Below, in pieces: positions 9,376 through 64,000 of a stretch of 64,000 nt of DNA. This stretch comes from Ceratodon purpureus. Taxonomy: Eukaryota > Streptophyta > Bryopsida > Pseudoditrichales > Ditrichaceae. The notes under the pieces were generated by a model that saw only the letters and a list, made by a program, of their open reading frames with translations, was not told the DNA's origin and made no database searches. Every line of letters begins with the position of its first letter. The first letter of the stretch is position 1. The position numbers were made by a program, and so were the translations under genes. The stretch is taken from contig CM026426.1 in NCBI GenBank assembly GCA_014871385.1, positions 57,514,089 through 57,578,088 on the forward strand, given 5' to 3'.

Positions 9376-9401
9376 AAACACCATATTCATTAATTTGGGA
9401 C
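9376..9401 (+). repeat. Left terminal inverted repeat
   Basis: 26 bp identical to the reverse complement of 30979-31004. Its inner part begins a small local hairpin (TAATTTGGGAC…GTCCCAAATTA, to 9420). Confidence 0.8.
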
Positions 9402-9964
9402 TTTTGCCAGTCCCAAATTAGTTTCGTACTAAATTTAGACCATCAATTGTGTCAATTATAATGGGACTTTCCTTATATTGGGATTAAATATGTATAGAAA
9501 TTTGACCAAATGAGCAATAATTGCCCAACATGTAATTGAACATCAACACTTTTTTGGACACTGAATTACGAAGTCCCATATATTGATGATTATCATACAT
9601 GTGATTATCTATGAAGGTCCATGGTTTAGTTGACAGTGAACAAGTCAGTGTAATTACCACCTCAAATATTCCTCAAATTATGTTATAGGTGAATAGACTC
9701 ATATGAGCATATATATGTGCAAAGTAATTTTCTGACAAAGACGATGGAGACTTATAAAAGACAAACGCCATTCCAAATTTCGAAGAATACATTTGTAAAA
9801 TTCAAGTGAGTGATAATTTGCCAGAAATTTTATTCAATAACAATCTTTCCAAACTTGAAAGCGTGGAGGGAACAAAGTACACAAAAGTAATTTTACCTCA
9901 ATACACCATATTCTGGTATGCGTGATGATCACACCATGAAGAATTTTATCCTACTAAACTATAA

Positions 9965-11036
9965 ATGCCGCAGCACTATCTATCTATCCTCACAGAACAC
10001 AAAACTCTGACGGTACTAATACACTATCTAAGTATTTAGCTCACATCAAGCCAAATAGATGGACACATTAAATTTTATAAAACCTCACAATTGTTGTGGT
10101 AGCATTATCTCCCTATCCTCATATGCTAACTTGTCGCTACGGTTAAGACACTCTAAGTATTTAGCTCACATCAAGCTAAATAGATGGACACATTAAATTT
10201 TATAAAACCTCACAATTGTAGTGGTAGCAGTATCTCCCTATCCTCATATGCTAACTTATCGCTACGGTTAAGGCAATCTAAGTATTTAGCTCACATCAAG
10301 CCAAATAGATGGACACATTAAATTTTATAAAACCTCACAATTGTAGTCGTAGCAGTATCTCCCTATCCTCATATGCTAACTTGTCGCTACGGTTAAGACA
10401 CTCTAAGTATTTAGCTCACATCAAGCCAAATAGATGGACACATTAAATTTTATAAAACCTCACAATTGTAGTGGTAGCAGTATCTCCCTATCCTCATATG
10501 CTAACTTGTCGCTACGGTTAAGGCAATCTCAGTATTTAGCTCACATCAAGCCAAATATATGGATACATTAAACTCTAAAAACATCACAACAGTAGTGACA
10601 GCAGTATCTAACTATCCTCACATGCTAAATTTTAGATATTAGGAAAACATCTAAGTATTTAGCTCACATCAAGCTAAATGACAACAATATTAACTATATA
10701 AAACATCACAATAGTAGTGGCAGCTGTATCTACCTATCCTCGAATGTTAACTCGTTGTTAGTAATACACTATCTAGATATTTAGCTCACATCAAGCCAAA
10801 ATGATGGACACATTAAATTCTTTAAAACATCACAATAGTACTGGCTGTAGTACCTACCTATCCACACATGCTCACTTGTCGATACTAATACACCATCTAA
10901 GCTAAACGATGGCACATTTAACTTTTTGAAACCTCACAGTAATACTGACAACAATCTCTATTTATCCTCACACATGACTAACTTGTCAATATTAAGTATT
11001 TAGCTCACATCAAGCTAAATCAGGGACACATTGAAC
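9965..11036. repeat. Tandem array of 125-bp units (left subterminal)
   Basis: AGTATTTAGCTCACATCAAG recurs at 10031, 10156, 10281, 10406 and 10531 (exact 125-bp period), then with 121-123-bp spacing at 10654 and 10775, and in a degenerate form near 10995. Every unit holds TTAGCTCACATCAAGCYAA, an imperfect version of the element's palindrome. The array sits directly 3' of the transposase-like gene, the position where En/Spm- or Ac-type elements carry subterminal transposase-binding repeats. The inner five units are nearly identical, suggesting recent expansion. Confidence 0.9.
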
Positions 11037-11039
11037 TCA

Positions 11040-13859
11040 CTAAAACCTAACCAGAGTAGAAGTTATAACGTTTCTTTGGATCACTGGAATACGAACTTTT
11101 GAATCGACAGTTCCGGACTTTATCTTTGATTTCCAACTAGTCATAAGAGAATCAGTATCAATCCACTCTGGCGTGTGCTCTTCATCAGCTTCCCATTGCA
11201 GGGATCTTCCAGAATTCCACCCAACATAGCATTCAAGGACATCTTCATTGGAAGAGCACGGTTTCCAGTATTGGACTTTAATACAATTTGGATGATTAAC
11301 AGGGTCATCAAATGGATTTGACATAGCCCTTGCTACCCAAAACGGCCGTGAATCGTCATCAGCAGGCCGTACAATGAGAAAATATCCCTCGTATACATCC
11401 CGAGCCACACGGAACGAAGGATTTGGCCGATCACGATGCTGCCCAATGAATGGCTCGTCTCTAGCAAACGCATCCCGCATCGTCCCATCATCAAGGTATT
11501 CGTCCTCCGGAGCTGCAGAGAACCGAGATCGTGGCCAAAATCCATCCCTTAAAACTGAAGGCAAAATGATATCATCAGAGAGGGCTTGATGCACCCCCTT
11601 CCAATATCGTGATATGCCTTCATTCCTTCTTCGGTACTCGCCCGACAAATCTTCATTTGCCATAGTTTCCCAATGGTTGATGAATCCTCCAATACCCCTA
11701 ATGATTTCCTCTTTATTCTTCATGCTTTGCGCTGGTAAAGCATTTGGAGACCCTGAAGGCAAGCTTGGCCTGCCGTCACTTAACTCAGTCCACAACTTGA
11801 TGCCACCATTCTCTTTTGGAAGCCACTCGCTATCCGTGCAAACAAGTTTATATTGCATCATTGGCCATCCGTTTGCATGCTTATAGAATTTAAATTGCTG
11901 GGCATTGGTATGCCCTTCCAGAGCTTCATCTCCAGAAGCAATATGACCATCTATAAAGCCCTTAAAATCTGGCACTTCCTCGATAAAATGTGGAATAACA
12001 GGCTCAGATTCAGCATCCATGAACGATTTCATAAGCAAAGGTATTGTGGGATAGTCATTTTTCCCAAGCTTCATACTCCATTGCCCAAAGAGGGCATCAA
12101 TATCATCATGAGTATGACCAACTAGCATAAAGTTCACATACACTTCCCGAAAGATACCTCTAGCAACAAGAAGTGAAAAATAACAGAGCATGTATCTGTT
12201 CTTGTTATCCGAGCACGCATTGTCCAGTTGGACATTTAGAATTGGAGGGAGTGGTTTTGGTGTAATCATATTTCTAGGAATAGGGGGAAGAGACGTGGTA
12301 CATATATCGCCTCCACTCAAAACAGCCTCAAAAAGAGGTGCTAGACGACCACCCGGAAACAATTCCCGTGAACATGTTTTTGGTACTGACTCAATATCAC
12401 GTAAAAGTCTGGCAATACTTCCAACGGTGTGGTTGGAGTCACTGGGAAAAACATCAAGTCCATAATGCGCGTAGCGTTGATCTCCGTGTCCATGAGCTAT
12501 CATGCCCGTGACTTGCAATGGCAACTTGAAATAGGACTCTGTTGCCTTGTTCTTGTGCGAGTATGCAGGCGAAGCTGTCTTCGAGTGGTCCATTTTATCG
12601 TGAATCACGGTTACAACATTGTCAGGCTCAGTTAGAGAACTATATCGATTCGCGTAGTATAACTCCCGATGCGCCCGTTGAGCGGCAAGGTGCTCGGTAA
12701 GCTTCATCTTCCACAGATCTTCTGCTCTAGAACCTTTCGTGCTAGCAGCTCTCAAGGATTTCAATCTGTCACACGTGCCGCACCGAGCAAAATTATCTCT
12801 AGGTTTCTTCACAGAGAACTCTGGAAATGAACGCCTCCTAATATTGCTGATCCCAGAGACTAACACTTTCTTCAAACCCAGCTGCCCGTTCACTATATTG
12901 ACTTGAGATAATGAATCCTTCCATTTCCAGGATGGAGGTAACGCCATCGATACTACCTTCTCACCGTTTTCCTGGGTCTTCGATCTATGAGGCATCTGAT
13001 CTGCAATACTATCCAGCATGCAACCCAATGTTGCTTTCGCTTGAATGGTGTACGTACGTGGCTTCTTACTGCCCAAATTCCCATGATGATCTGCTCTAAC
13101 ACCTTGATCAGCCAGGCCTTGGTGACGGAAGAAGCTAGTCCGTGATACTCCTAGAATTTTGTACCATGCAACAGGACATACTTCAAGTCCTTCTAATGTG
13201 ACGACTCGATTTCCAGCTGCGTCAACGTGCATTTGCCGATGCTCATCTAGCTGGGTATGTTTTTTAAAATAAACAGTCCCATCTCTCCAGAACTGATTTC
13301 TGAGAACTTCAATTTTTTCACGGGGATAAAATTGAACACAATTTATCCTACAACAGTTCTCGCTAGAAACTGCGGAAATAGACCTTGAAGATAATTTTTC
13401 TTCTGCTTTAGGCGTACTCGCAGGGAGGCGCGGTACTCTTGAACTCTCATATGGTCGCACTCCCACGCGCTTCCTCCCCCTCGACAAAGCTATGGCAGCA
13501 TTATATTTTGCGACTTCGTCGTGGTCATACAATGACGCTCCATTCACGAATACGTTTCTTATATGCCATGCTCGGAGTGAAAACATCCATTCGGACGGAA
13601 CGTCATCTTCACATAGGGACTCTGCGATCTGCACGGCCACTCGATCATCACGAAGAGCTGTTCCATCACTTCCAATCACAAGGTCGGAGTCGACGCTGTG
13701 ACAGATGCCCTTTGCAACAATGGAGCCATACTCGTTCACAAGAGTAACACACTTAGTAATCCAAGATGATCTAGACATACCATCGCAATGAACCACGTCG
13801 TCTGGCAGAGTAGGCTCCTGAGGAAACAGAAGATCTTCCACTTCAGAGAAGTTCTCCAT
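11040..13859 (-). CDS. Intact transposase-like protein, GHTH-DID (DUF7869-like) type
   Basis: A single uninterrupted 939-codon frame starts at ATG (13857-13859) and ends at TAG. An N-terminal segment (about residues 30-90; KCVTLVNEYGSIVAKGI, then DDRVAVQIAE) resembles the DUF8039 domain of plant En/Spm-type proteins. The central part carries the RNase-H-like signature of the DUF7869 family: IHDKMDHSK (about residue 420), QLDNACSDNKNRY (about 545) and VGHTHDDIDALFG (about 581), supplying the acidic residues expected of a DDE-type site. A CxxC pair (RCGTCDRLKS, about 360) may bind zinc. The C-terminus (about 810-880) contains YEGYFLIVRP and PFWVARAM, a BAH/chromo-like reader fold by appearance. 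By position it is the element's transposase. It is flanked on both sides by palindrome arrays that could be its binding sites. Assignment is by motif only. Confidence 0.75.
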   Translation of the reverse strand: MENFSEVEDLLFPQEPTLPDDVVHCDGMSRSSWITKCVTLVNEYGSIVAKGICHSVDSDLVIGSDGTALRDDRVAVQIAESLCEDDVPSEWMFSLRAWHIRNVFVNGASLYDHDEVAKYNAAIALSRGRKRVGVRPYESSRVPRLPASTPKAEEKLSSRSISAVSSENCCRINCVQFYPREKIEVLRNQFWRDGTVYFKKHTQLDEHRQMHVDAAGNRVVTLEGLEVCPVAWYKILGVSRTSFFRHQGLADQGVRADHHGNLGSKKPRTYTIQAKATLGCMLDSIADQMPHRSKTQENGEKVVSMALPPSWKWKDSLSQVNIVNGQLGLKKVLVSGISNIRRRSFPEFSVKKPRDNFARCGTCDRLKSLRAASTKGSRAEDLWKMKLTEHLAAQRAHRELYYANRYSSLTEPDNVVTVIHDKMDHSKTASPAYSHKNKATESYFKLPLQVTGMIAHGHGDQRYAHYGLDVFPSDSNHTVGSIARLLRDIESVPKTCSRELFPGGRLAPLFEAVLSGGDICTTSLPPIPRNMITPKPLPPILNVQLDNACSDNKNRYMLCYFSLLVARGIFREVYVNFMLVGHTHDDIDALFGQWSMKLGKNDYPTIPLLMKSFMDAESEPVIPHFIEEVPDFKGFIDGHIASGDEALEGHTNAQQFKFYKHANGWPMMQYKLVCTDSEWLPKENGGIKLWTELSDGRPSLPSGSPNALPAQSMKNKEEIIRGIGGFINHWETMANEDLSGEYRRRNEGISRYWKGVHQALSDDIILPSVLRDGFWPRSRFSAAPEDEYLDDGTMRDAFARDEPFIGQHRDRPNPSFRVARDVYEGYFLIVRPADDDSRPFWVARAMSNPFDDPVNHPNCIKVQYWKPCSSNEDVLECYVGWNSGRSLQWEADEEHTPEWIDTDSLMTSWKSKIKSGTVDSKVRIPVIQRNVITSTLVRF

Positions 13860-14023
13860 ATTGTTGTCGTCAAATCACTTTGAGAGCTGGACCAAAACAG
13901 AAAATTAACATTACATATAATAAGAGAATTTAGTGATAACAAAAATCTTCAGAATTAAAGAAAATAAACAATACCAATTTCTATGACAGTGAGAAACCAT
14001 TTTAGGTCACAATCAGCTAAGTA

Positions 14024-14990
14024 GAATAAGTTCCATTGGGCTTAACTGAGTTAGCTCATTATGAGCTAAATAGGTTTAGCTCAGAATGTGCGTGTTTGGT
14101 TACTCTCATAGTGACCTCTACCATTTCAAAGATATGGAGCATAATCTTCTACGACGCAAGGAGCCATACAGGTTTGAGTAACGGTGACCGTGACCACATT
14201 ATCTTAACTTGCACTATTTCAGGAGAGTCAAACAGAAAATGATAATTACATTTTAAGCTCTCAATGAACTAACCAGTTTAGCTATTTGTGAGCTAAACCA
14301 TTTTAGCTCAATGTGAGCTAAACCAATTTAGCTCATAGTGAGCTAAACTAATTTAGCTCACTATGAGCTAAACCAATTTAACTCAATGTAAGCTAAACCA
14401 ATCTAGCTCTTTGTGAGCTAAATAAATTTCACTCATTGTAAGCTAAACCAATTTAGCTCATTGTGAGCTAAACTATTTTAGCTCAATGTGAGCTAAACCA
14501 ATTTAGCTCAATGTGAGCTAAACCAATTTAGCTCAATGTGAGCTAAACCAATTTAGCTCATTGTGAGCTAAACTAATTTAGCTCACTATGAGCTAAACCA
14601 ATTTAACTCATTGTAAGCTAAACCAATCTAGCTCTTTCTGAGCTAAATAAATTTAACTCATTGTAAGCTAAACCAATTTAGCTCATTGTGAGATACACCA
14701 ATTTAGCTCAATGTGAGCTAAACCAATTTAGCTCAATGTGAGCTTTACCAATTTAGCTCATGTCATTGAGCTAAACCGTTTTAGCTCATTGTGAGCTAAA
14801 CCAATTTTGCGTATTGTGTGTTAAAACAATTTAAATTATTGTGAGGTAAAATCTACTTAGCTCATTGTGAGCTAAACTGATTTAGGTCGATCTGAGCTTA
14901 ACCTATTGATCACGTTCTGGACTATACCATTATTGCTAATTGTGAGACCAATTTAGCTCACTGTGAGCTAAATTCGATAAATCGACCTAA
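14024..14990. repeat. Tandem array of about 24-bp palindromic units
   Basis: About 35 head-to-tail copies of a unit reading TTTAGCTCA-NTG-TGAGCTAAACCAA. Each unit contains a near-perfect inverted repeat of TTAGCTCA. The array lies immediately 5' of the transposase-like gene, so with the 125-bp array it brackets that gene. It may act as a binding platform, a promoter region or both. Variants with single substitutions are interspersed, which suggests repeated slippage expansion. Confidence 0.9.
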
Positions 14991-16018: not shown

Positions 16019-16019
16019 C

Positions 16020-16085
<66 letters not shown>
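16019..16085. repeat. (TA)n microsatellite
   Basis: An uninterrupted run of TA dinucleotides for about 65 bp. Confidence 0.95.
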
Positions 16086-16089
<4 letters not shown>

Positions 16090-16997
16090 TTATATAAACA
16101 CAGCACATTTACGTAAGTAGAAATATTACGCTTAATAGTGTCAGATATATTACATAATCATACATGTATAATACAAGCATATAACAACGTATGATAGGTG
16201 TATATATGTATATACATTCAATACATGTTTAGAAATATCGGTAAAATTTTGAATAAGAAATAAAGGTGCTAATCATAATCATATTAATCCTCTTCATTTG
16301 GTATTAAGTTTGAAAAATTAACTTACGTACATTACTTTTTAACTGAACTTGGCTTCGTATGCTAATTTATTGAATCTTGCATTCTAAAATGTACCTTACC
16401 AAAATAAATAAATCGCAATATTTGTTCAAAAACAAATTAACAATTTATTTAAATGAAGTAAATACAAACATTGGAATGATATGTTTATATATACATACAA
16501 TACGTAATTTGTTTTTACAAGTATTACGTTTATATATGCATATATATCAAGTATATAAACTACTGTAATATGTACTTCAATATACATATAATACATATAT
16601 AAATAAATATGAATACATATGCATATAAATAAATATGAACATATATACATATAAATAAATGTTTAAAATAATATTTAATTTTTATTTTAGAGCTAAGACT
16701 TACATATTAAATTTGCAATAGCAACATTTGTAGTTACTCAAAATAATGTCCTTAAGTTTAAAAAGAAAAAAATCAAACAACATTTCATGTATTGTCTACT
16801 ACAACTACACTTGGTAAACTATTTTTAAAAATGCTATCATAAATAAATACATTTTAGGTAACATACACCTAGATTACAACATTATTAAAAAATTAGAGGA
16901 AAGAGCTAAGTATTCTAAAGAAAATATGATGAATACATGTAACTAAAACATGTATATTACATCTCGATTTATTCAAGTATTTAATGTACTTACAAAG

Positions 16998-16999
<2 letters not shown>
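16086..16999. other. AT-rich spacer
   Basis: Low-complexity TA/ATA-rich DNA. Its frames are Tyr/Ile repeats of no coding value. Confidence 0.7.

Positions 17000-17088
<89 letters not shown>
17000..17088. repeat. (TA)n microsatellite
   Basis: A run of about 88 bp of TA dinucleotides. Confidence 0.95.
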
Positions 17089-17092
<4 letters not shown>

Positions 17093-17829
17093 CAAGTACC
17101 TAAATAGAACATATATGCATCTAAATAATATCTGTATGTCTGTGTCTAATACAAACTTAAAAATACATCTAAAATACAAATAGGCAAAATGGGAAATAAG
17201 TTCAAATAAGCATACACTACTAGCAGTAAATCCAATAACCATATATATGTAAATATACATTAGTATATGTAATGAATTGTACATATGATATTCTAAGCGT
17301 ATTATTTTTTAAGATATCGTTGTATATTTAAATATTGAAATATATATATATATATATCCTACAAATCTATATGTTCTCTAAAAAAACTTTATATATAAAT
17401 ATTAAAGACATATGTACCTATAATATGTATATCTATTTGCTTAATAAACATGTTTATTTTCATAAATATAAATATATATATATATATATATATTATATAT
17501 ACAAAGACATATATAAATGTACATATATATGCATGTGTATACGTGTGTGTTCAAACAACCTCATGTATAAGCAAAAACGTATATGTGTATATAATATATA
17601 TAATGTATATTATACAGGCTATATCCATCATTCACTATAATATATAATTTCAAATTTTTATATTTTTATATATATATATATATATTACCTATGTGGTCAT
17701 ACTCAATATCCATATTTTCAAGTTTCTCTATTAGTATATATATTTATATATATACTGATGTATATGTGTGCATATAATGTATATTTATACATATAATACC
17801 TACATGTTCATACTCATATTACATATTTT

Positions 17830-18990
<1,161 letters not shown>

Positions 18991-19371
18991 TGAATATAAG
19001 CATATTGTATTTAGGAGTTTAAAGATACGGACGTCAAAATGTTTATATATACATATTTTAAAATGTACGTATTATATATTGTATACGTATATACCATATA
19101 TTTATGTATATGGTTATATAAAGTATGATATGGATTGAAGTTATATGTTGTTAACGAGCATATATTCCTTGGAACATGAAGGAACATAAGAGATACTTTT
19201 GATCATGGGTACTTCACTAAAAACCACAGAATACATATTATTCGTAAATGTGTATATTTATTTCTCTACATTTATATTATATCTATATTTGAAAAAAAAA
19301 TTATATAATTATGTCAAATCAATCTAAATTTATTTTGCAATTTAGGAAAGTATGCTAATTAAGAATAAAAT

Positions 19372-19372
<1 letters not shown>

Positions 19373-19447
<75 letters not shown>
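19373..19447. repeat. (TA)n microsatellite
   Basis: About 75 bp of TA dinucleotides. The DNA from 19448 to about 19970 is AT-rich and shows nothing else. Confidence 0.95.
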
Positions 19448-19449
<2 letters not shown>

Positions 19450-19974
19450 TTATATTGCAGTATATATATATGTATCTATATATTTACATGTATAATTGTT
19501 CTTATCCACAATTCCATAAATACTTAGACATTTATATATATTAGCATATATAAATATATATATATATAAATAATTTTATCGATAATTATATAATTATATA
19601 AATACTTATACATAAATATGAGTATAAATACCTATACGTAAGTAGGGAATGAAAAGGCATCCTATGATAGTTTTATTTCTTCAATTTTGTACCCGTAGAT
19701 GATTTTTTTTTTAACGTATTCTAGTGTATTCATATCGCTTACGGATTTCATGGTACGTTCAATAAATTTTTTTAAGTTTATGGCAAGGCAAATACTATAA
19801 AGTAGTTATAAAATGAATTCATACTACAAAAAACCCTTCAATTTGTAGACTTTGTAAACAAATTTAATGTTTAAGGAATGCCTCGAAAGAATGACAATAA
19901 AAAGAAAAGGATAGAGGAGAAAAAGGTTTGTATATTTGTATAACTAATTTTTGGTCACAAAAGAAGAAGTTTTG

Positions 19975-20900: not shown

Positions 20901-22520
20901 TCTGTTTTCTTCATCGTGTAGCCACAAGTTGCGTGAAACCGTACTAGGCAGCCTTTTGACATACGAGGTAAGAGTGACCTTGCTTGAATTCTGTCATCGT
21001 CATTGTGATGCACACAATTTGCTAGTTCTGTCTAAGTTTTACAGAACTTTACTGAATCTGATTTGTTAGTTTGATTGAATATAGATCTAGTAAACCTTTG
21101 AATTAGATGATATTGAAATGGTAATGTATATGTGTTAGGGTATTGGTATAGGAGTGCCGAAGCGTAAACTTTTGGAAGGGAGGAACATAGCTTATTTCAA
21201 CTCCGCACCCAAAATTACTGTTTTTGCAGTACTGGACCCTGGTACGCACATTTTCTTTTGTCTAAACAGATGTTGTTGTTAAATATTCTCTCTTCTAAGT
21301 GTTCCTCTAGGTCTCCGAAGGGAGTTCATGATGTGTTCTATATGTTTCATGTTTTAACATTGTACTACTTACCAGTATTAGATATGTCTATGTTGTAGAT
21401 TCAGGAGCGATCGCTTATAGTTTTCTGAGAGTGCACATAATTTTTATCCAGATTTGTAGGGAGTTTCAATTATCAGGATGTTTTGCATCTAATAATTTCA
21501 TATGTAGAGCTTCTTATCTGTACAGTTGAATCCATAGTTCCCCAAAGCAGAATGCAACCGAGTTCAAATTCTATCCAACTGTTGTATCAGTTTTGTCGTT
21601 TGCAGTTTATGGTATTTCTACATTTGTGTCTTTGTATCCTCTGTTTTCATTTTCTTTTGCATTTGCCATACTTTGGAACTCACTTTGATATTAACTGGTA
21701 TAGAGAAGTCTATAAATTTACAGGTTCATATGTTTCATATTGATGTGTAAGATATAAAGTACATTTAGCTCACAGTTACAAATTAATATAAATAAAAGTT
21801 TAGCTCACTGTGAGCTAAACTCTAACTAATTAGATGCAAAAAAGCCAGAAAAGCCTTGAGAAGCAATAAGTACAAGAGATATTTAGCTCACAGTGAGCTA
21901 AAGTCGTAAAAATTTTCAATAATGTATCTAGAGGGTTGCAGTATAATCCCGAGGCCAAGTATTATTTTGCTCACTGTGAGCTAAACCTCGATGCGATATA
22001 GCAGAATTTAGCTCATAGTGAGCTAAATGATAGTAGCATTTGAAATTACTTAGTTCAAAAAATAAGAACTTCTTGACAGGTTAACACCTCTTTTGCTCAC
22101 AGTGAGCTAAATTCTGCCAAATCAAATATCAATTTAGCTCACATTCAGCCAATTTGTCTATAAAATTAGTAACATACTACGTTTACTTCAAGCATTTGGA
22201 CAAATTAAGATGTGGTTTGAAGAAAGAGGATCATCATGAAATTAGAATAAGGCTCTAATTTAGCTCATTGTGAGCTAAATACATTAACTTTCAAGACAAC
22301 AATAGCCATCTTTAAGCTGTTACATTATTGTAGATAAAATACAATTTAGCTCACTGTGAGCTAAATTATGTTTCGATTGTAGTCTAATAACCAGGGAACG
22401 TGCTGAAAGTGTCCCGTTGGATTCGAATCTAATTTACCTTTGTTTTCTGGATTCAGGTTCTGATTTTCATCTACAGTCACTCCAAATAATCTTCGAGTAT
22501 CTTGCAGAAGATCCACAAAG
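20901..22520 (+). other. Putative 5' exons of the ParB-methyltransferase gene
   Basis: Three segments have good flanking splice sites. They are about 20901-20967 (GTGCAG| to GAG|GTAAGA), about 21140-21241 (GTTAG| to CCTG|GTACGC) and about 22459-22520 (ATTCAG| to AAAG|GTAAAA). The second and third join in one open frame (GVPKRKLLEGRNIAYF, then SDFHLQSLQIIFEYLAEDP). The phase does not continue cleanly into the ATG exon at 22707, so they may be untranslated, alternative or mutated. Introns between them hold many TTAGCTCAC palindromes. Confidence 0.4.
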
Positions 22521-22706
22521 GTAAAAGGTTTAGCTCACAGTGAACTAAATCAATTAGAATGTCAATGAAGAAATTGTGATATCAATAAGATGATTCTATA
22601 GTGTACTTAGACGATTGTGATCATAGCTTACTAGAAATGTAGAACCATTCCTATTTAGCTCACTGTGAGCTAAATAATTTAACTGAGTTCATTATGTTCA
22701 TTGCAG

Positions 22707-30978: not shown

Positions 30979-31004
30979 GTCCCAAATTAATGAATATGGT
31001 GTTT
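30979..31004 (-). repeat. Right terminal inverted repeat
   Basis: 26 bp, the exact reverse complement of 9376-9401. Confidence 0.8.
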
Positions 31005-48245: not shown

Positions 48246-48301
48246 TACAAGCCACGTCCGATAGAGGCTACACAACGACAGTATGCCATACCGAATTCTG
48301 A

Positions 48302-53516: not shown

Positions 53517-54548
53517 TCAAAGTTCCGTGCGCTGTAGTTTTGGACACTTTGTTGGTTGATCTTCATCGTCAAGTTCTCTTGTCCGCTTCCGTATTGGAAC
53601 CCATTCAAATCGTTTTTTCCAAATTGATCCGGTTTGTCCACATCCAACTCGATCCAGCCAAATCCCTTCATTATCTGCTTTCCATGCGCAATCTATACAC
53701 TCGATAGGCATTGAAACGTGGTTTAGCAGAGGAGGTGTCCATATTTTAATATCTCTATGATAAGCCATAGTCCCTAGGTCTTTAAAATTGCATATCCAAG
53801 TCAAACTTAGTAAATATTCATCAATGCTTCGATCTAAGGATATTCGAAAAAAACGTTCAGATATATGTACTCGAAGGCGTCCAGGAATTTTCACAGTGTT
53901 CCTTGTGCCATACACAACTCCATATGTAAGCATTAATTCATCATCCAGATCATTAAAAATAGAGATCCTGTACTCTGCCCAATGTTCGTGGTGGTCCTCG
54001 TCCTCCTTCCAATGCCCAAATAGCTTGAATTGATGTCTACCGCTAAAAGGATGGAACTGAGAAACATACAAACCATCACGTTCAATATTCCATCGACACA
54101 AATATGTATGAGGGCTGGGACCTTGTTCACAAATAGGACAATTGTCATTGTTGAAATTTGCATCTTCGTGCTGCGTATGACGAGCATTTGGATGCTCCCA
54201 GATGCACATGAAATCTATCTCATATTCTATGGCACAGTTCCATTCGCGGATTTTGTATTCAAAATCACAAAACAAATTATCTTCAAAATCGAGAAGACCG
54301 CCGCCGACTTCGACAGATGCATGAGCTCTGATTTGATCAAATACGACGTTCTGCTGTTTTGGCACACCAAGATCATAGACCTTTTCGAAGCACTGTAGCC
54401 ATACCTTCTTGTACATATTATTTGTAATTTCAACTGGCGACAATACATTTTGTGGAGTTTCCTCATCAAAGGAATGTACTTGTTGGAAAGTTGTCAAAAT
54501 TAAGACATACAATAGTGAAAAAACGCGTTTAAGTCTAAGATCTTCCAT
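53517..54548 (-). CDS. Secreted protein with two tandem S1 (S-protein homolog) domains
   Basis: One uninterrupted exon, 343 codons, ATG at 54546-54548. The N-terminus (LKRVFSLLYVLILTTFQQVHS) is a signal peptide with likely cleavage after residue 26. Domain 1 (about 37-160) shows VEITNNMYKKVWLQC, DLG, LFCDFEY, FMCIWEH and YLCRWNIERDGLY, the Cys/Trp pattern of plant self-incompatibility S1 proteins. Domain 2 (about 190-300) repeats it: YRISIFNDLDDELML, LTWICNFKD and IECIDCAWKADNEGIWL. S1/SPH proteins are usually single-domain and about 120-150 residues. They act as secreted signalling or incompatibility factors. A basic tail (RKRTRELDDEDQPTKCPK) follows. No transposon features, so probably a host gene. 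Confidence 0.65.
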   Translation of the reverse strand: MEDLRLKRVFSLLYVLILTTFQQVHSFDEETPQNVLSPVEITNNMYKKVWLQCFEKVYDLGVPKQQNVVFDQIRAHASVEVGGGLLDFEDNLFCDFEYKIREWNCAIEYEIDFMCIWEHPNARHTQHEDANFNNDNCPICEQGPSPHTYLCRWNIERDGLYVSQFHPFSGRHQFKLFGHWKEDEDHHEHWAEYRISIFNDLDDELMLTYGVVYGTRNTVKIPGRLRVHISERFFRISLDRSIDEYLLSLTWICNFKDLGTMAYHRDIKIWTPPLLNHVSMPIECIDCAWKADNEGIWLDRVGCGQTGSIWKKRFEWVPIRKRTRELDDEDQPTKCPKLQRTEL

Positions 54549-55361
54549 GCTATAAAGTAAATGTGAAATTTGATTGAATTCTAATAGTTATTTGAACAAT
54601 ATTTAAGTTTATGAAGATAGCTTTTTAATTCTTCAAATGTTCTGAAAAGGTGTAGTGAATTCTGCCTATCCATCCATATCACTTATGATGACTTTTCAGT
54701 AACAATTATACTTTTGGAATATAGAAATAGTTATAGCATAGCAGTTACTTATTCGAAAGATTCCTGGAACGAATACAAAATGATTTCTTATAAAAAATAG
54801 TCGATGAGCTTGTTAGCTATGGACAATGAATTAAGAATTGAAGTTTTTTAATTTGTTAAAATAAAACTTGAAAGTCTGAGTTTGATACTTATTGCAGAGT
54901 TTTAGATCAAACTTAGATCAGATCAAAAAAACTCCTCAAAAACTTATGAGACTTTGATATGCATTTGTTCGAACTTAGGACATTGATTTGATTGTTTAAG
55001 GGAAAGGGGTGCTTTAGTGTCGATGAAATAAGGTGATTAGATGTGCATGAGAAATATGGAAAGTTAAACAGCTTGAAAGATTTATAAGCACTTGCTATAT
55101 TTGAAAACAAAATCACACAGTAGAATCACATAAGTAATTCTTCTACCTAGTGTTAAAATCTAGATTCAGTTGTTACCGAAAACAGTCTATCAGAATCAAT
55201 GTCTCCTCAAATCCTCAATGTATTATTGCTCGCATGTATGAAGGTTTTGCACAAAAAAAAACGAAGTACATAAGGGATTCAACGGACATTGCGGAAACCA
55301 GAAACTTGAAGTGCTACAAAATTTTGGAAAGGATGACCATAAACCAAATCCAAAAGCAGAA
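54549..55361. other. AT-rich intergenic DNA
   Basis: No supported gene. The plus-strand frame at 55150-55479 overlaps the 3' end of the minus-strand gene below and is its shadow. Confidence 0.4.
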
Positions 55362-57787
55362 CTACGGAATAAACTCATCCTCGCTCTCTGAAGCACTGTT
55401 TAGAATGAACGGGCAGAAACTAGGATTATATTTTTTGCAAGGACTAGATGAGGCACTGGAACTAGTAGAAGAAATCTGAGCTAACTCCTCTGCCAGGCCT
55501 TCAATGTAGCAAGGAAGTCTATCAGATCTGCTCGGTGAGCGGTACTCTCTCCAAAGACGTCTCAGATTCTCAGTTCAACTGCCAAAAAAAAAACAAATAT
55601 TAGTTACAAAAAATAGAGTCACAAGACAACTCAAGAACAGTAGAAAAAGAATGATGCAATTGATAACGAACTTACTCACATAAATCTACAGCATCCTCCT
55701 CGGGAAGGACTTCGTCGTCGTCGGTAAAATCAGTAAGCTCAGATGGCGCAATTGAGTGGGACCGTGGTGCAGTCCTCTGAAGAGGCTCCAGAACCTCCTT
55801 GAAGATGTTCTTATCCCCTTCAAGTGCCACGATTGCCCTCTTCGTTGCCTGGGCGGCCAGCACTGCAACCCCTATACGTAGAGTCAAAGGAGTTAGAAAC
55901 AATCAATTTCAAAGAAAGTCAGAAAAGAAAAACCGAAGAATGTGAAAGTAATTTACTAGTTCACGGAGCAAGGTTACAAGCAATCCCATTTGCAGGGCAA
56001 AGGCCGCCAATCAGAAGCTCCATAAGGACCTGAGACTTCTCCTTTGGATCCCTCCAAAGGAAGTCGAAATCCTTTCTCTTTATGGCGGATTCCTGAGTCA
56101 CAACATTGAACAATACGTCATCCTTAGCAAGGTTGACCTTTGCAAATTGAGCCCCTGTGAGAATGGCAAGGTCCCTCGGTTTCCTAGCCATAGGTTTGCA
56201 GTAGTCTCAAACCAACAGGACGGCCTTCAACATCAAGGTCTGCATTCAGCATAGCCTTATCAATTGACTTGAGAATGTAATTGTCAGATAACCAATTAAA
56301 AATCTAACTCATAGTTAATTGCGAAGATTCGTAGCATAAAACTTACCAGCCGTGAAGGGTCTGTAGGGTGCATATCGTGAAGGAAATTGACAATGATCCA
56401 CTCTTTCTTCACAACCAGGTTGTTGTTCTTGAGAAAGCTTCCCAAAACTTTCATGATGTGGCTGCTGTCTGGAATAAAGAAAAGTAGAGCCCCGTCATCG
56501 TGAAGGAAGCCCCGACAAAAACCGAACGTCAGCTTGATGTAATCCTGCACCAACTCATTCCATAAAGGAACATGCTCAGGAAATTCCGAGACCCCCGGGA
56601 CAAACAATCCGTCCGGAAAGTCCGCAATCACCAAGTCCACTGCAGGTTTCTGATCGGCCAATCCTGAGAAATACAACTGCCGACTTCCTCCAACCTGCAG
56701 AATATAAATGCGTTAAAACCCAAAATGGTGCATAAAATTCAATATAAAAATGAGAACAAAAAATACAAGGATAATTTACAATTTTACCTTGGTAAGAAAT
56801 GCAATCATAGCCTCAAAGGATGGGGGGTATTTGCCTCGCTTGCTCTTGTAATCCACCATCATGTGAAAAGCCTCATCAAGGATGAGAGCCTTGGTCGGGT
56901 GTCGGATAAAGGACGCTGCCGCTGACATAGTCTTCATGGCTGGGGGAGTAAACTGGGAGGGAGCATTCTATGAAGAAGATGCATGCTGAGGGCGCTTGAA
57001 CTGTGGACGGGGAGGAGGAGAAGGATTGGGCTGAGTGACCGCGGGCTCGGTTTGCTGACCCTCAGTGCCTACATCGGTGTTTGCGGGAATGTCCTCCTCT
57101 GCTTGCTCATCAACTGGATCCTCTGCTTTTCGCTTTGCACCCCTTCCTTTCCTCCCCCTGGAAGTCGCCTTTCCCTTAGGAGAGCCTGCTGCTTGCTGGT
57201 CAGGAGAATCCGAGGGCGCAGCAGCTGGAATCTTGGCCAGAGCTGGCTGAAGAGAATCTCGAAGTGCAGCATCAAAATCCGGGCACTTCTTTAAGGGACA
57301 GTCCATATACCACCCACATCTCTCATAGTGAACTGGCTCCCAAGCCCTAAGCATCGCAGGCGTCTACATACACTCCGAATTTGAAGTGTCGAGGTAGTTA
57401 GGAAAAAAGGCCGGTACCTTGGATATTGCCTTCCTCGGGAGGAGAACATACTTGAAGTACTTGTAGAGAACCCTGCGAACAGCTGGATAAAAATTTGGTT
57501 GTTGATCAACGGTCTTGATCATGTGAACTTGGTCTCCAGCAAATTCCTTGAAAAATGCAGAGTCCCACAGCTGGCACCTCATGGCCTTGACATAGTCGAA
57601 AATATGCTAAACTGGATCCTCTTTGTCAGGGCAGTAGTTAACCTCCACTCCCTAGTCTAAAAGAACTCCCTTAAAGAGCTCCTTGACCTCCACTGCTAAC
57701 TGAAAGAGAATTCAAGTCAAACCATAATATCAGTAAAAAACCGAAACTTTAGTAACCATCCTAAATCAAAAATCACATGCGGGTCTT

Positions 57788-58245
57788 GCCTCGGAAAGCA
57801 CTGCCGTTAACGGCAGTGCTTTCTGAGGCCAGCCCACTCCACTCACTTGAGCCATTGAGCTCATGCGAGGAAGCAGCAGCAGAGAGATTCTGCTGCTCCA
57901 GGATAGACTGCCGTTAACGGCAGTCCTTTTGGAAGCAGCAGAATCTCTTTGCTGCCCCTTTGCCCACATGAGCCTTGGGCTCATGCGCGTGCGCAGAGGA
58001 ACTCCTCAATGGCACTGCCGTTAACGGCGGTGCCAAAGGAAGCGTGCCTTGCGCACCCGCATGAGCCCAAGGCTCATGCAAGGAAGGAGCAGCAGAGGGA
58101 TTTTGTTGCTCCAGAAAGGACTGCCGTTAACGGTAGTGCTTTTCGGAGCAGCAGAGTGTCTCTGCTGCCCCTCCTGCGCATGAGCCAACCGCTCATGCCG
58201 GACAAGTAGCTGCCCTTCTTAGCTGTGCCGTCAACGGTAGTGGTT
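57788..58245. repeat. GTTAAC-centred palindrome cluster 1 (intron of copy 3)
   Basis: The 42-bp palindrome 57788-57829 (core CTGCCGTTAACGGCAG) is followed by GACTGCCGTTAACGGCAGTC (57906-57925), sites at 58011-58034 and about 58121-58136, and a decayed one near 58224. Two other inverted repeats alternate with it: GCATGAGCCCAAGGCTCATG-type and GAGCAGCAGAGAGATTCTGC-type with its complement. Confidence 0.9.
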
Positions 58246-59624
58246 TTGAGGGGCAGTCAATTGAATTTCAGAAGCAAAACTGGAGAAGAATTAAAGCAAC
58301 TTACTTACGCCCACCAAGTGGCCTTATGGAGCCATGGAGGGAATACAATGTCAGTGAAGTTAGGCTTAAAAAATTATTTGCATCCCGAATAGCTACAAAA
58401 GAGTTCCACCTTTGGAGCCACTTGATCATCATCGGCGTGGGCATGTTGCCAACATCTAGAGCTTCTCCTGTTGCATCTTGGGCTTATCAAATTTTTCGTA
58501 ATGTAGTTTTACCTCCTCCAGGAATACTGCAATGTGTTTTGGATCTGCAACCGGCAAATACTTCTTTAGCTCTCCAATAAGCTTGTCCTCCTCTGCCTTT
58601 ACAGCCTGGGCAACCCAATCGCCGGCAGATCGTTCAGACCACTGCTCAGGTCTGGGTGTTTGATGTGAAATCTCTCCTAAGCAGCATGCGCGGCTTCTCC
58701 TAGCTCTTGATGCATTCGTACAAAATTGTTAAAGTTATTCAACATGAAAAATAAAACGATAATCGTTCAAAGACATTGCTGCGGCTGAGGAGGGCATACC
58801 TGATACAGCACTGAGCATAAGGCTTCAACCGAGAGTGTGTACCAAGTTCTCTTCTTTTCGGCCTGTTTCTTCTTTGCTGCCTTCAGAACCGGCTGTAGTA
58901 CTAGACCCTCAAAGTAAGAGATTGGCTGTGGAGCTATGTTTGGACGCGGTACAGTTTGTGGAAAAGATTAATCGACACATGCGATTTATGATTCCTCCTG
59001 AACAGGTAGAAAATCCGGTTAATTAGCACTCTCAAAAATAGAAGACAAATTATAATAAAGATTAGAGATTAAAGATCCCTCACCAGTTAACTTCGTGTAA
59101 CGCGGTCAAGGCGGAGGGTACGTACCCTCTCGGATCGAGAATTACACTCTCCACCCTGTAATGCCAGATAATATCTCCGGCATGATACTCCCCAATAATC
59201 GGCATCTAGGCCTGCAACCTATGGTTACCATCCCTGACCATGAACATCTTGTTCGAAAACATCATCAAGTCATCATCTTCACGCAAGCTCTGTTCAAAGT
59301 CTTCATTAACCTCCTTCCATTCCTTGGACCAAGAGGCTTCAATAGCCGGGGTAACTTCTGAAGTATGCCCAAGGTTGTCTTCAAGGGCACCGTAAAAATA
59401 ACCATTGCCCTCCATGTAACCATCCCTAACAGAATAGGCAGCAACGTTGTTTACATCATTCTTCAAAAAAGGGCAAACCACCGGCAGTGACCCCATACGA
59501 CAAAGAGGTATGAAGAGTCGACCCTTTGCCTTCCGCTACCACTTTAATCTCTCCAGTCGCGATCTGGTGTTCATTGATTCCTTGTTGACAAGGTCATACA
59601 ACTTTTGCTTGAGTCCTCGGTCCG

Positions 59625-60145
59625 ATAAGAGAACGTTAGCGGCACTGCTTTTGCAGTGCCTTCGGAATGGCATGGAGCCCATCTTCATCACCAAAGCTTG
59701 GTGATGAAGGTCGGGTACAAAGGTGGGCTCAATGCCATCCCAAAGGCATTGTAAAAGCAGTGCCGTTAACGACACTCCTTTTGCAGTGCCTTTGGGGTGG
59801 CACCTCAAAGGCACTGCCGTTAATAGCAGTGTCAAAAGGTGGGGGCCATCGGTCATGCATCAGCCTCCGGCTCATGGGGGCAAAGGAACAGCAGAATCTC
59901 TCTGCTGCTCTCATGCGCGCATGAGCCCGAGGCTCATACGGATGCCAAAGTCAATCCCTGAATGGGAGTGACGTTAACGGTAGTGCCAAAGGGTTAGGGT
60001 GATTGGTACCCGCATGAGCCCAAAGCTCATGCGGGTGGGGGAGCAGCAGAGAGATTCTGCTCCTCCGTAAAGGACTGCAGTTAACAGCAGTTCTTTTGGG
60101 AGCAGCAGAATCTCTGTGCTGCTCCCGCGCCTGCACGAGCCTAAG
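59625..60145. repeat. GTTAAC-centred palindrome cluster 2 (intron of copy 3)
   Basis: The same three inverted-repeat types recur. GTGCCGTTAACGACACT lies near 59760, CACTGCCGTTAATAGCAGT near 59812, GACGTTAACGGTAGT near 59970 and ACTGCAGTTAACAGCAGT near 60073. CATGAGCC/GGCTCATG and GAGCAGCAGA/TCTGCTGCTC arms lie between them. CTTCATCACCAAAGCTTGGT followed by GATGAAG (59686) is an extra hairpin. Confidence 0.9.
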
Positions 60146-60329
60146 GTGGGTTATGAGGAAGCGCGGCAAATTAAAAAAACCCTAGAAGCTTACCTTGAGG
60201 TTGTGTATTGGACGTGTCGCGGCTCTCCTCTTGGAGATCCTCCAATGTTGGTGTGTGTTGAGGCTGGTACTGAGTCTCGTCGAGTCCATCAGACCGAGCA
60301 GCAAAGTTAGCTTCGGAATGGCTTCCCAT

Positions 60330-61175
60330 ATCTTGAAGAGATCTCAAATTAGACTAGAGTTAACAAACAAGCTCCATGAAGCAAAAACCGAGAAGCTCCA
60401 ACAAAAACAACCCGTGAGATTGAGTTAGTGCAACAACAGGAAAGCGCAGCGAAGTCGAGGATCGATAGGAGAGCAAAGAGAGTTAGGTTGTTTCTGTGAA
60501 GTTAGAAGAAGGAATGGGGTCGAGAATTAAGGCACGTAAATTTGGCAAGGCTAGTTTAGTGATGCACATAATGAGAGGCTATGGATTGAAAATAGGCAAT
60601 TGAGCTGCGCTAAGTGCATATCAAAACCTAAACTCCAAAACATCCTGCCTCCGATCCGAGACAACAAACGCTGAAGTCGACATAAGGATGACTAAGTAAC
60701 AGGGAGGAAGAGAGACTATAATTCATAGACATTCTTTTACAAGTTGCACGAGGAGCCTCCAAAATTATAACCAATGTTCCTTGAAGCCAGTGCACTCAGA
60801 AAATTTATAGGAGTACCATCATTATTATTATAGCAAAATCTGATACTTGTAGTTGATATTTATCTTCCAATGACGGCTCAATCTAAGACAGTACAGATAC
60901 CCATCAAATCAAATTAAGACCACGATGAAGATTTTATTAATCCGTTAAATTTACATCTTTATATCCACGACCTAACTGAAACTGACGGCTTCTTAATTGA
61001 CTAACATTACTAATTCATTCTACTTTACATCTATACTAAAAGCATATTGTGCTAATCAACTAACAAATGAAACCTGGACATCTAATAAGTAGAACACAGG
61101 CAATGCACTAATCCTCTCAATTTCTTTTTGCTATTTCGTCTAGTCTCACTCCAATCTCTCTACACATAGTCGAGA
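60330..61175. other. Divergent intergenic region between copy 3 and the second MULE-type copy
   Basis: About 0.85 kb without a supported gene. It presumably held promoters for both divergently oriented genes. Confidence 0.4.
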
Positions 61176-64000
61176 ATGGCGCATCTCCCTGCGGACAGAG
61201 TGTTAGGCATGGCCGTCCTCAGAGCTCATGGCGTTGGGATTCCACTTACAGTACGTGTCGATGAGGATGGCTTGGCAACTGTTACTGCGCAGCGCCTCAG
61301 CCTGAGGTTTCACTTCAGAGAAGAGAGTATTAGTTTAAAGGAGGAGATTTATGATGATGACATGAATGAGATCACACACACTCTCGATCAGGCTTCAGAG
61401 AAAGACGATGACGATAACAGGTTGTAGAACCTGTATCCCGGTAGGTACAGAGTTTATGGTCTTACAGAGTCCCAGATGCAGGCATCCACTGAGATTCTAA
61501 CTCCTCGTCAATCCTCTACTATTCAGACTCCTCTGCCATGCGATGTAAAGGTCAAATTAGAGCCTGGATTAGATCCTCTGGATGTAACGCCAGTCATCTG
61601 GACTTTTCTTCACACGAGGAGACAAGTCCGCTGAAAGCAGCACCTGCTGTACCAAAACAGTCTGTAGAATCTAGAATGCCATCGGATTTTCCTGTCAAAG
61701 GCTCCAATACCTCTCAATCTCCAAAGGAGGAGTCTGCCTGTGTAGTCCCTCTCATTAGGAAACTTGCGGAGAGACCAGGGAGGAGAAACATTCTGAAAAG
61801 TATAGATTTCTCTTTAGTGAGACACAAGAAGGTTGAGTACTTATCTGCTATGTTCGACGATAGCGTAATCTTTGAGCTCCCTCCTGTTGGTGATGGAGCT
61901 TCTAGGACGCAGGCGAAAGCAATGCAGGGAATGGACAAGCGTTACGATGGACATGTATGGACCAAGACAATCACAACCAACATCGCTAACGATTTCAGCC
62001 TCGCATTCCGCTACTCGAGCTGCGTTGGTTGGCTCCGCTGCAACAACAAAGACTGTGAATTCCTCAACCGCCGACCGCGAATCGTTTAGGTAAACGAGAC
62101 CGAGTTTGAAGGATGTACCCTGCAACTGTTTCGAGTAGCTCAGCCTCCACCAGCTGATTCATCAATTGGTTGCAAGGTATGTAAGGAACCTACTGCATGT
62201 ATTGCTACATGTGGAGCGAAAGTTTATTACGTGATTGGAGAACCCAACCAGAGCAGGGCATGTATCCATATCGGAACACATGATCACCCAGTCAAGGTTG
62301 GAGACTGTAAGGATACAAAGGCGGAGATCGGAAGCCTAATTGAAGAGCAGGTCAAGATGACACCCAAGGCTACCAAGAGCGCTGTTGTCTTGGAGGCGAG
62401 CAAGGTTCTGATCGGCATCTATCTCCTTCAGCCTGAGGACGCATCACCGAAGAAGCTGAGTATAGAGGAGCTTATCCCGATCCCGGATCGCTGCAAAGAC
62501 ATGGCACCCCCGAACATCCGCAACAAAGTTATGACGTTTCGGCGACTCAATCACTAAACTCCGTGGAATTTGTCTGTAGGCGTTTGTCCAAGAGAATAAG
62601 TTTCCAAATCAGGGGGCCGAACGGGAGAAAGTCTTTGTGTTTAAGATGTCCGAAGTTGGTCTCGGGAGTGGTGTCGACTTGGTCAGTAGGATGCAAGCTG
62701 GCGGAGACCTTGAGAACGCATGGATTATGTTCGACCACGTGAAACGTGTGACGAAGTGGTCAACCATGGCTTGCCATGTGTACGACGCTACGTACTGCCG
62801 AGTGATGACAATTGCCAGCTGCGACATGCAATCCGAGAATACCAAAGCCGAGCTCAACTTCTGGAAGAACCTGAATCTCGCCATGAGTCGGAACGGCGTT
62901 GCAGCACCAAATTTCAAGGGCTTCATGGCGGACAATGCAGAGGCGAACTGGAATGCAGTGAGGATTATCTACAGCAATGGCAACAAAGAGGACCGAATGG
63001 AGGATCGGGAGAGGTCCTGCCTGTTCCATTGGACTAAGAGCATGCTGCAGTATACAGTGAAATACTTCCCTGAAGAACTCCGGGAGCAGCACAAGAAGAT
63101 GCGTAACCAGTTCAAGGCAGCTAAGAGTTTGACAGAGGCGGACACTCTGTACCACGGGTTGCGAGCCTGGTGGGTATTGACCGGGCTTCTGGGCGAGGTG
63201 GCACTAATCAAACTGGATTAGTGGCTGGCATATTGGCACCACCGCTACCGCCAGTGGGGCGGGTTCATGTCTGGGGTGAGTTATCCCCAAAACTGTGATA
63301 CGTTCCTTTCATACCTTATCTGATCACCCTAAACATCAGAACTTTTATCCATGACTGTCAATGAAGGCCCTTGAGTGTCAACGAAGGCACTGTAAAAGGA
63401 GTGGCGTTAACGGCATTGCTTTTGCAGTGCCCTTGTCTTCACTAAAGGGCCCTTCATCAAACTATCCTCGAATCTATCCTTTAGTGTCAACGAAGGCCGT
63501 CGAGTGTCAGCGAAGGCGCTGCAAAAGGAGTGTCGTTAACGACAGTGCTTTTGCAGTGCCCTCGTCTTCTCTCGAGGCCCTCATTTAACTATCTTTGATT
63601 CTAACTAATTCCTCTGTCTAAATTGCAGAAATTCACGAAAGAAGAACTTACAGAGATGCCGATCTGCAACCTCGCCGAAACCGTTCACAACAAGTGGCTC
63701 CAAGCTTCTGGGAACAACGGCAGCGATCTCTACGTTGCCAGTGTGGATGATCTCGTTCGGGCATTTCTACAGGTTGTTAACTATTACCAATTTCTGAAGG
63801 GTGACCTGGGCGGAACAAGTCCATCGAAGAAGGAACTGAAGCTTAGGATGGCCGAGTGCAGGGCAAAAATTACAGGAAATCCTGCGCTCCTCGAAGATCC
63901 CATGCTGGATATGCCAGGAGGAGAAGAGTTTTGCACCCGTGAACCTATAATGCCTGGAGCAGAATTGTTTGGATCACAAAAGCGTAAGGCCGACGTACCC
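61176..64000 (+). pseudogene. MULE-type transposase, decayed copy 2 (runs off the window)
   Basis: Closely related to the gene at 42.9-46.6 kb over its length: GVGIPLTVRVDEDGLATV, KRYDGHVWTKTITT, GWLRCNNKDCEF, ACIHIGTHDHPVKVGD, VYDATYCRVMTIAS, FMADNAEANWNAV and CLFHWTKSM. TAG replaces residues that are Trp, Glu, Trp and Gln in copy 1 (61425, 62087, 62577, 63219). Frameshifts lie near 61590 and 62545, where about seven codons (RYGIMDG) are also lost. Exon 1 ends at 63275 (GGG|GTGAGT). The intron (63276-63628, 353 bp against 106 bp in copy 1) contains GTTAAC palindromes. Exon 2 starts at 63629 and leaves the window before the SWIM finger. Confidence 0.85.
63360..63590. repeat. GTTAAC-centred palindromes in the MULE-type intron
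   Basis: Two diverged units of about 125 bp (starting TGTCAACGAAGG and TGTCAGCGAAGG) each carry a palindrome, AGTGGCGTTAACGGCATTGC (about 63400) and AGTGTCGTTAACGACAGTGC (about 63528), flanked by GCACTG/CAGTGC arms. The same core occurs in introns of the ParB-methyltransferase gene at 57.8-60.1 kb. Confidence 0.9.

Follow-up and report, generated by a model that had tools for sequence, protein, structure and literature searches.

A 64,000-nucleotide stretch of the genome of the moss Ceratodon purpureus (the window; positions 57,514,089-57,578,088 of its 110,524,308-base contig) contains three modules in which a transposase gene lies beside a gene described as a ParB-methyltransferase fusion, and this raises the question of what such an accessory protein does for the transposons that carry it. 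All three modules named in a preliminary description of this DNA are present. Element 1 joins a DUF7869 (GHTH-DID) transposase to a type-1 ParB-methyltransferase gene, and elements 2 and 3 join MULE-like transposases to type-2 genes. The reading favored here, to which we assign a probability of about 0.55, is that moss DNA transposons encode an accessory protein that would recognize the palindrome of its own lineage and control both genes of the element. Judged from sequence, a self-recognizing regulator or anti-silencing protein appears to account best for the features documented below.

Head-to-head gene pairs recur across the genome

The three window modules are samples of large families. 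Searches covered the 362.5-Mb genome, and matches to the N-terminal part of the type-1 protein number 151 (150 of 532 candidates scored), forming classes by identity of 88-100% (A), 66-83% (B), 50-56% (C), and 36-46% (D). For DUF7869 the best 150 of 982 genome candidates were scored. A DUF7869 match lies within 35 kb of 106 of the 144 type-1 copies entered, and every one of these 106 pairs is head-to-head; among 200 random placements the mean was 5.65 and the maximum 12. The ParB and DUF7869 classes agree in 99 of the 106 pairs (A-A 16, B-B 25, C-C 12, D-D 46; others 7).

For the type-2 families, the candidates scored were the best 150 of 1891 for the ParB exon, the best 150 of 1643 for the ParB relative from element 3 (a set overlapping the 1891), and the best 150 of 2128 for the MULE-like core. 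Among the matches listed, 34 of 150 type-2 copies pair with a MULE-like copy at a distance of no more than 30 kb, 32 of them head-to-head, compared with a mean of 3.3 and a maximum of 9 for random placements. A tandem array lies 5′ of the gene in 16 of 20 fetched 10-kb type-2 loci, with a period of about 128-211 and a length of up to more than 5 kb; several arrays run past the end of the locus (L009, L011, L012, L015, and L024 end inside the array). A MULE-like gene is found on the 5′ side in 13 of the 20 loci, being inside the locus in 6, in 5 of 5 loci that were extended, and in 2 from the listed matches (L014 and L021); L017 and L025 have neither array nor transposase in reach. Other genomic copies thus agree on their transposase partner and carry palindromes particular to their lineage, the opposite of the outcome named as refuting in the preliminary description.

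Palindromes follow the protein lineage

In most of the lineages surveyed a single palindrome is present in many copies. The palindrome of classes A and B is TTTAGCTCACwGTGAGCTAAA, and further lineages carry TTATCCTCGAsTCGAGGATAA, TTTAGCTCGAsTCGAGCTAAA, CTACTGTC(6)GACAGTAG, AGTGTCGGCCCCGACACT, and variants around GCCGTTAACGGC. Matches to TTAGCTCAnnnTGAGCTAA with at most 3 mismatches occur 55 times in the window, all at 10.0-31.4 kb and 54 of them between the inverted repeats of element 1, against 0-2 in each of 20 Markov shuffles; in the well-matching sites the half-sites are conserved and the 3-bp center is variable. The 3.6 kb 5′ of the ParB exon was surveyed in one locus for each of the other type-1 classes. 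The class B locus (L036) contains 14 palindromes of the A-type TTTAGCTCAC-W-GTGAGCTAAA (11 exact, 3 varied) in a 41-bp array of its own, 6 of 7 palindromes in the class C locus (L035) are TTATCCTCGA-S-TCGAGGATAA, three of them shortened or varied, and 9 of 10 in the class D locus (L034) are TTTAGCTCGA-S-TCGAGCTAAA, one of them two bases shorter, in addition to one variant. Markov shuffles of the B, C, and D loci contained 1.0-1.5 palindromes on average, with maxima of 3, 6, and 2, respectively. Variants of ACTGTC...GACAGT dominate 15 of the 16 type-2 loci with arrays, and AGTGTCGGCCCCGACACT dominates the sixteenth, L026. Among relatives of element 3, L045 (85% identity) carries GCAGTGCCGTTAACGGCACTGC, exact in 9 of 11 palindromes, and all 11 palindromes of L046 (70% identity) are GTACTGCCGTTAACGGCAGTAC or near variants. 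Together with the class survey, these relatives indicate that related proteins have related palindromes and distant proteins different ones, with a third relative, L047, as the exception. Covariation of palindrome and protein lineage, which had been put forward as a test, is therefore observed: C, D, and A/B differ from one another, as do element 3 relatives and the type-2 locus L026.

Genome-wide, the A/B palindrome has 439 sites, the C palindrome 145, the D palindrome 2154, the type-2 CTACTGTCGTCACAGACAGTAG 1011 (576 and 435 on the two strands), and CTGCCGTTAACGGCAG 751, and the reversed-pattern control gave 0 in every case. Distances from sites to genes were taken for only the first places of each genome count among the matches listed. 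On this basis 49 of 50 A/B sites have a listed A/B gene copy within 20 kb, and the last has one at 21 kb (by hand); for 17 of 50 C sites a listed C copy is within 20 kb, and none of the 50 is near A, B, or D. Near a class-D transposase are 20 of 50 D sites; none is near a listed ParB copy, as the list contains no ParB copy for the four places concerned. For type 2, 99 of 100 sites are within 13 kb of a listed type-2 copy, and 32 of 50 CTGCCGTTAACGGCAG sites are within 5 kb of a listed element 3 relative (both by hand). One class-C palindrome was seen within the type-2 locus L018.

The palindromes are grouped on the 5′ sides of both genes. In element 1 (class A), a 25-bp tandem array of TTAGCTCAnnnTGAGCTAA (14271-14972) lies directly 5′ of the transposase open reading frame (ORF), and dispersed TTTAGCTCAC-W-GTGAGCTAAA palindromes and variants (21797-22676) lie 5′ of the coding exons of the type-1 ParB-methyltransferase gene. 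Class C has groups at C5 1,878,840-1,879,325 and 1,888,278-1,888,538, flanked by DUF7869 at 1,876,000 and ParB at 1,890,184. For class D, DUF7869 at C1 299,626 has a group (301,920-302,317) on its 5′ side; the ParB side is represented by a different copy, L034, with palindromes 5′ of its ParB exon. That palindromes precede transposase and ParB-methyltransferase gene alike in classes A, C, and D suggests control of both promoters.

The reader of these sites could instead be the transposase, with the ParB-methyltransferase gene as cargo that has another job. Transposases of Ac and En/Spm bind subterminal or internal motifs, the transposase classes here track the ParB classes and hence the palindromes, and a 125-bp tandem array with a degenerate version of the palindrome, TTTAGCTCACATCAAGC[CT]AA, is located close to the left end of element 1 (10027-10885). 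Nevertheless, the palindromes are mostly internal and 5′ of genes rather than terminal, and two different transposases occur in this one arrangement, each with this kind of partner gene; we consider transposase binding unlikely.

Sequence comparison of arrays and protein halves

Comparison of array units separates the palindrome from its surroundings. The unit of L015 has 24 bases, cctACTGTCGTCACAGACAGTagg, in common with L013, L014, L009, and L024, and its flank identity to those units is 0.60-0.64 (shuffled maxima 0.52-0.61). L022 and L027/L028 keep cctACTGTCGTCACAGACAGTagg with changes at the center only, while identity in their flanks is 0.48-0.64 (shuffled maxima 0.52-0.65). Conversely, the unit backbone of L026 resembles those of L022 and element 2 (0.65-0.67 versus 0.55-0.58) and its palindrome differs. 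Between classes A and B the nonsynonymous divergence (dN) is 0.10 and synonymous divergence (dS) is above the limit of the method, yet one palindrome is common to both. The type-2 ParB exon, with dN/dS of 0.12-0.25 in 15 pairs, is by this measure under purifying selection.

These comparisons bear on the proposal that no protein reads the palindromes, which would be small repeats inside the elements, either mobile or amplified by slippage. The tandem arrays clearly amplify, and the scattered class-C sites considered below also fit such an origin. However, a palindrome common to array units with flanks no more alike, or little more alike, than shuffled sequence, the retention of one palindrome by A and B at a very high synonymous divergence, and the inverted half-sites around a variable 3-bp center all speak against it, and we regard it as improbable.

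A natural chimera suggests which half of the protein is involved. From about position 8250 of its locus, corresponding to the methyltransferase half, L026 is 97-100% identical to L022 and L024 and 93-98% identical to L015 and L009. Positions 5250-8000 are 67-89% identical to the nine others compared, and the L026 palindrome is unlike that of L022. Copies with another methyltransferase half (64-76% identity to L026 over 8250-9500), for example L014, share the palindrome of L015, L009, and L024; the N-terminal half of L014 is near that of L022 (dN 0.03). The observed covariation with the N-terminal half suggests that the palindrome is tied to this part of the protein.

The methyltransferase part has lost its catalytic motif

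The methyltransferase homology of type 2 is supported by a match of the element 2 protein to the DNA amino-methyltransferase profile PF01555 (E 3.1e-7, 31 bits versus a cut-off of 26.7) and by a match to DpnA (E 2.8e-5) whose alignment sets DIPEN on DPPYN. No such PF01555 match was obtained for the element 3 piece or for type 1, and the type-1 profile has no significant match in the PDB; homology of the type-1 part would follow from motif order and resemblance by eye only. In phages the methyltransferase part matches DNA methylases in 160 records, with 26-37% identity in the 15 listed.

Catalytic motif IV of the beta-class DNA amino-methyltransferases of PF01555 is DPPY, SPPY, or NPPY. In 20 of 20 type-2 loci it is D[IV]PENLPVP, which is not DPPY-like, and in 7 of 8 type-1 copies, read by eye, it is D[FL][RG][NDH] (DFRD, DLRD, DLRN, DLRH, DLRN, DLGN, and DFRN); it was not found in the remaining copy, L038. 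The window copies read DIPEN, DFPDG, and DFRG. A family protein with methyltransferase homology in type 2 but a lost catalytic motif is probably best not classed as an active enzyme.

These features constrain the possibility of self-marking, in which methylation of adenine or N4-cytosine, placed by the protein on the palindromes of its element, would protect or license that element. In its favor are the PF01555 match and the DpnA/CcrM relatives, 10 occurrences in the 20 type-2 loci (strict search) of the S-adenosylmethionine-motif stretch PGD...EWS[AT]GT, and the proposal made for algal proteins in the available part of PMC12477816. Against it, motif IV is replaced as described, the type-1 motif I glycines look altered (by eye), and the palindrome does not track the methyltransferase half. 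Since the catalytic motif is replaced in every readable copy, self-methylation is unlikely and binding is favored over catalysis; methylation of the palindromes by the element protein, raised in the preliminary description, accordingly finds no support in motif IV, and we judge self-marking quite improbable.

The ParB-like part

Bacterial ParB binds dispersed palindromic parS sites. Type 2 carries GNHRLSAW, and type 1 carries NGQH followed by S or C instead of R. Phage proteins yielded no relative of the type-2 ParB exon and plasmid proteins none of the type-1 ParB part; viral contigs yielded no relative of either part, nor of the DUF7869 ORF. The single below-cut-off stray in the ParB profile search was DUF6551 (E 0.0068, 1 of 9). 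Of the two domains expected for the protein, the methyltransferase is recovered in type 2 and ParB is not recovered by sequence profile searches. Two things speak for retaining the ParB label: the G[NQ]H motif, and an algal transposon in which this architecture is called ParB-like.

A model for self-recognition

In the model we favor, large DNA transposons encode, head-to-head with the transposase, a two-part accessory protein whose N-terminal half bears the ParB-like G[NQ]H motif and whose C-terminal half derives from a DNA amino-methyltransferase. Within each lineage this protein would recognize the lineage's own palindrome, as is suggested by the change of palindromes as the accessory protein changes. 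Binding at the palindrome groups next to the 5′ ends of both genes would then control both. Its most likely role would be to keep the element transcribed against host silencing, in a VANC-like manner, with autoregulation of transposition as a close alternative.

We infer that the protein itself binds the palindromes, and likewise what such binding does, and several observations weigh against this model. No ParB fold emerges from the profile searches made: there is no match to ParB/Srx (PF02195) or another ParB family in Pfam for the single parts and all members of alignments A4 and A5, nor in NCBIfam (A5 only), PHROGs (A4 only), or the PDB (profiles A4 and A5). The only stretch common to the N-terminal domains of the two types is F[MF][IV].[NE]G[QN]H, around G[NQ]H, and hhalign gives their match a probability of 0.7% (E 0.08). 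Among the listed matches, 38 of the 144 type-1 copies have no DUF7869 partner; these may be broken, or the partner may lie beyond the matches listed. Four of the 20 type-2 loci lack an array and have at most one such palindrome each. In L035, shuffles reach 6 palindromes against the 7 observed, though a single motif accounts for 6 of those 7, and L047 (61% identity to element 3) has two palindromes only, within the shuffled range and with no clear set. Of the listed class-C sites, 33 of 50 are away from listed class-C copies and mostly single; these isolated palindromes perhaps represent a small non-autonomous element. Finally, the array adjoins the 5′ half of the gene, and linkage alone could carry it along with the N-terminal half in chimeras such as L026. 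The competing assignment of the palindromes to the transposase, discussed above, also counts on this side.

An extended form of the self-recognition model, which we offer tentatively and at less than even odds, is that these genes are a eukaryotic, transposon-borne counterpart of ParB-parS. With two transposase types and hundreds of copies, a protein with ParB-like and dead methyltransferase parts would co-evolve with a private palindrome and load on arrays at both promoters to keep only its own family active, the methyltransferase serving as a ligand-gated DNA clamp and not as an enzyme.

Organization of the window elements

Element 1 spans 21.6 kb (9369-31011) and is flanked by 33-bp terminal inverted repeats, the left at 9369-9401 (+) and the right at 30979-31011 (−), that match at 94% (E 1e-7); no clear target-site duplication was seen at the ends by eye. 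Inside the repeats, as befits a DUF7869 transposon, is the transposase ORF (11040-13874, −), open over 944 aa and matching PF25273 at E 1e-43. The type-1 ParB-methyltransferase gene (22707-28061, +) has at least three exons and two in-frame TAG stops. Its exons (22707-24149, 24477-25805, and a third from 26466) are all phase 0 with AG/GT borders, and the third ends at 28022 (with a donor) or 28061 (at a stop). Palindromes occur in the introns at 24198, 25958, 26183, and 26393, and two others, at 26817 and 27549, sit within the third coding exon. A second cargo gene (28655-29254, +) encodes a NIF/FCP1-type phosphatase-like protein (PF03031, E 1.1e-7). The usual motif of the NLI interacting factor-like phosphatases of PF03031 is DxD; in this cargo, traced over 28464-29254, the preceding exon reads DING. 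From 16022 to 19619 the interior consists, over about 3.6 kb, of AT-rich tandem repeats, (AT)n and others like it.

Element 2 is probably bounded by a GAGCGGAGAGC-rich inverted repeat of about 59 bp at 34092-34149 (+) and 48190-48248 (−), with 78% identity over 59 columns and 88% over a 42-column core; no convincing target duplication was seen by eye. Mutator-like elements are described, in the literature seen in part, as having terminal inverted repeats and an 8-11-bp target duplication. The type-2 gene (35871-40207, −; first ATG placed by eye) has one TAG stop and one frame change, with a ParB exon at 38875-39458 and methyltransferase exons at 36698-36848, 36495-36647, 36140-36410, and 35871-36052. 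Between the two genes lies a 128-bp tandem array of 4.1 copies with a CCTACTGTCTGTACAGATAGTAGG-type palindrome (40347-40870), followed by the MULE-like transposase ORFs (42839-46604, +). The MULE label of the preliminary description has no Pfam support, as neither the window copies nor other copies gave a Pfam match to a MULE transposase profile and there was no match in the PDB; it derives from that description and from SWIM-like C/H spacing seen by eye. A remnant of a further MULE-like transposase at 1-144 is 82% identical to 44460-44598.

Element 3 has a probable left end region at 51957-52209 (+), recognized by direct repeats with the left end of element 2 at about +17.85 kb. Its type-2 gene (55362-60329, −) is degraded by TAG stops and frame changes, and its protein parts share 28% (methyltransferase) and 39% (ParB) identity with those of module 2. 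The CGTTAACG palindrome and others occupy the introns of this gene (57782-60142), and the MULE-like transposase ORFs (61170-64000, +) have internal stops and extend past the window end. Sites of CGTTAACG at 57805, 57912, 58019, 58125, 59764, 59972, 63405, and 63534, the last two in the transposase intron, agree with the earlier placement of GTTAAC-type palindromes in introns of both genes. A 356-aa ORF at 53517-54587 has a below-cut-off match to plant self-incompatibility S1 (PF05938, E 0.0044) and may belong to the left part of element 3. Outside the elements, a 72-bp foldback at 8401-8472 has a perfect 42-bp palindrome at its center.

The window copies are damaged, with stops in genes of modules 1-3 and frame changes in modules 2 and 3; open-frame copies of these genes exist elsewhere in the genome. 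In-frame stops of the window copies are mostly TAG. Decayed copies listed for the element 3 family have 34 TAG, 9 TGA, and 2 TAA, and the bias is hardly seen in the copies listed for the element 2 family (17 TAG, 14 TGA, and 3 TAA). Use of TAG as a sense codon is ruled out by ORFs of 944 and 726 codons without internal TAG and by the many open copies; the excess is perhaps context-dependent C-to-T decay.

A tandem repeat of period 21 lies near the 5′ end of the type-2 gene in 20 of 20 loci (L009-L028), and in the window it reads, by eye, as YMPTSPV-type heptads (39799-39899). These resemble the heptad of the RNA polymerase II C-terminal domain, YSPTSPS, and a common RNA polymerase II link between the type-2 heptads and the element 1 NIF/FCP1-type phosphatase is possible.

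Relation to known systems and implications

The only direct precedent found is Sola1-1_Ec32 of Ectocarpus, for which the available part of PMC12477816 describes an accessory ParB-methyltransferase gene and refers to green and red algae. Sola1-1_Ec32, at 21.5 kb, resembles element 1, at 21.6 kb, in being a large DNA transposon; the likeness extends to an accessory gene on the strand opposite the transposase, the combination of ParB-like and DNA amino-methyltransferase parts, and proposed self-recognition. Unlike Sola1-1_Ec32, the elements here are in a moss and have DUF7869 and MULE-like transposases; the palindromes, arrays, covariation, and lost catalytic motif go unmentioned for Sola1-1_Ec32 in the part of that article available. 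In the literature found, which leaves out most subscription papers, there was no land-plant ParB-methyltransferase gene paired with DUF7869 or MULE-like elements, and no private covarying palindromes or catalytic motif loss for such genes.

The VANC proteins of Arabidopsis offer a second comparison, with private motifs in tandem repeats, lineage specificity, and fast co-divergence in the accessible part of PMC5735166. Like VANDAL/VANC (PMC5735166, PMC10398659, each in part), the moss elements have a transposon-encoded accessory protein, lineage-specific motif arrays in noncoding element DNA, a MULE-like transposase in type 2, and fast co-divergence. They differ in their methyltransferase-derived and ParB-like parts, in palindromes that are long where VANC motifs are short, and in a second transposase type. 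Bacterial fusions of ParB-like and adenine-methylase domains are also on record (PMC5512222, as far as accessible); dispersed palindromes and the ParB-like/methylase fusion are common to the bacterial systems and the moss genes, which differ in giving no ParB profile match, in being intron-containing eukaryotic genes, and in having lost the catalytic motif.

If the self-recognition model is true, ParB-methyltransferase transposons are extended from algae to moss and from proposed methylation to binding. A single genome offers protein/palindrome pairs of graded divergence, including a natural swap of protein halves, which makes transposon self-recognition and escape from silencing directly testable and could be a source of sequence-specific DNA readers whose target sites are long.

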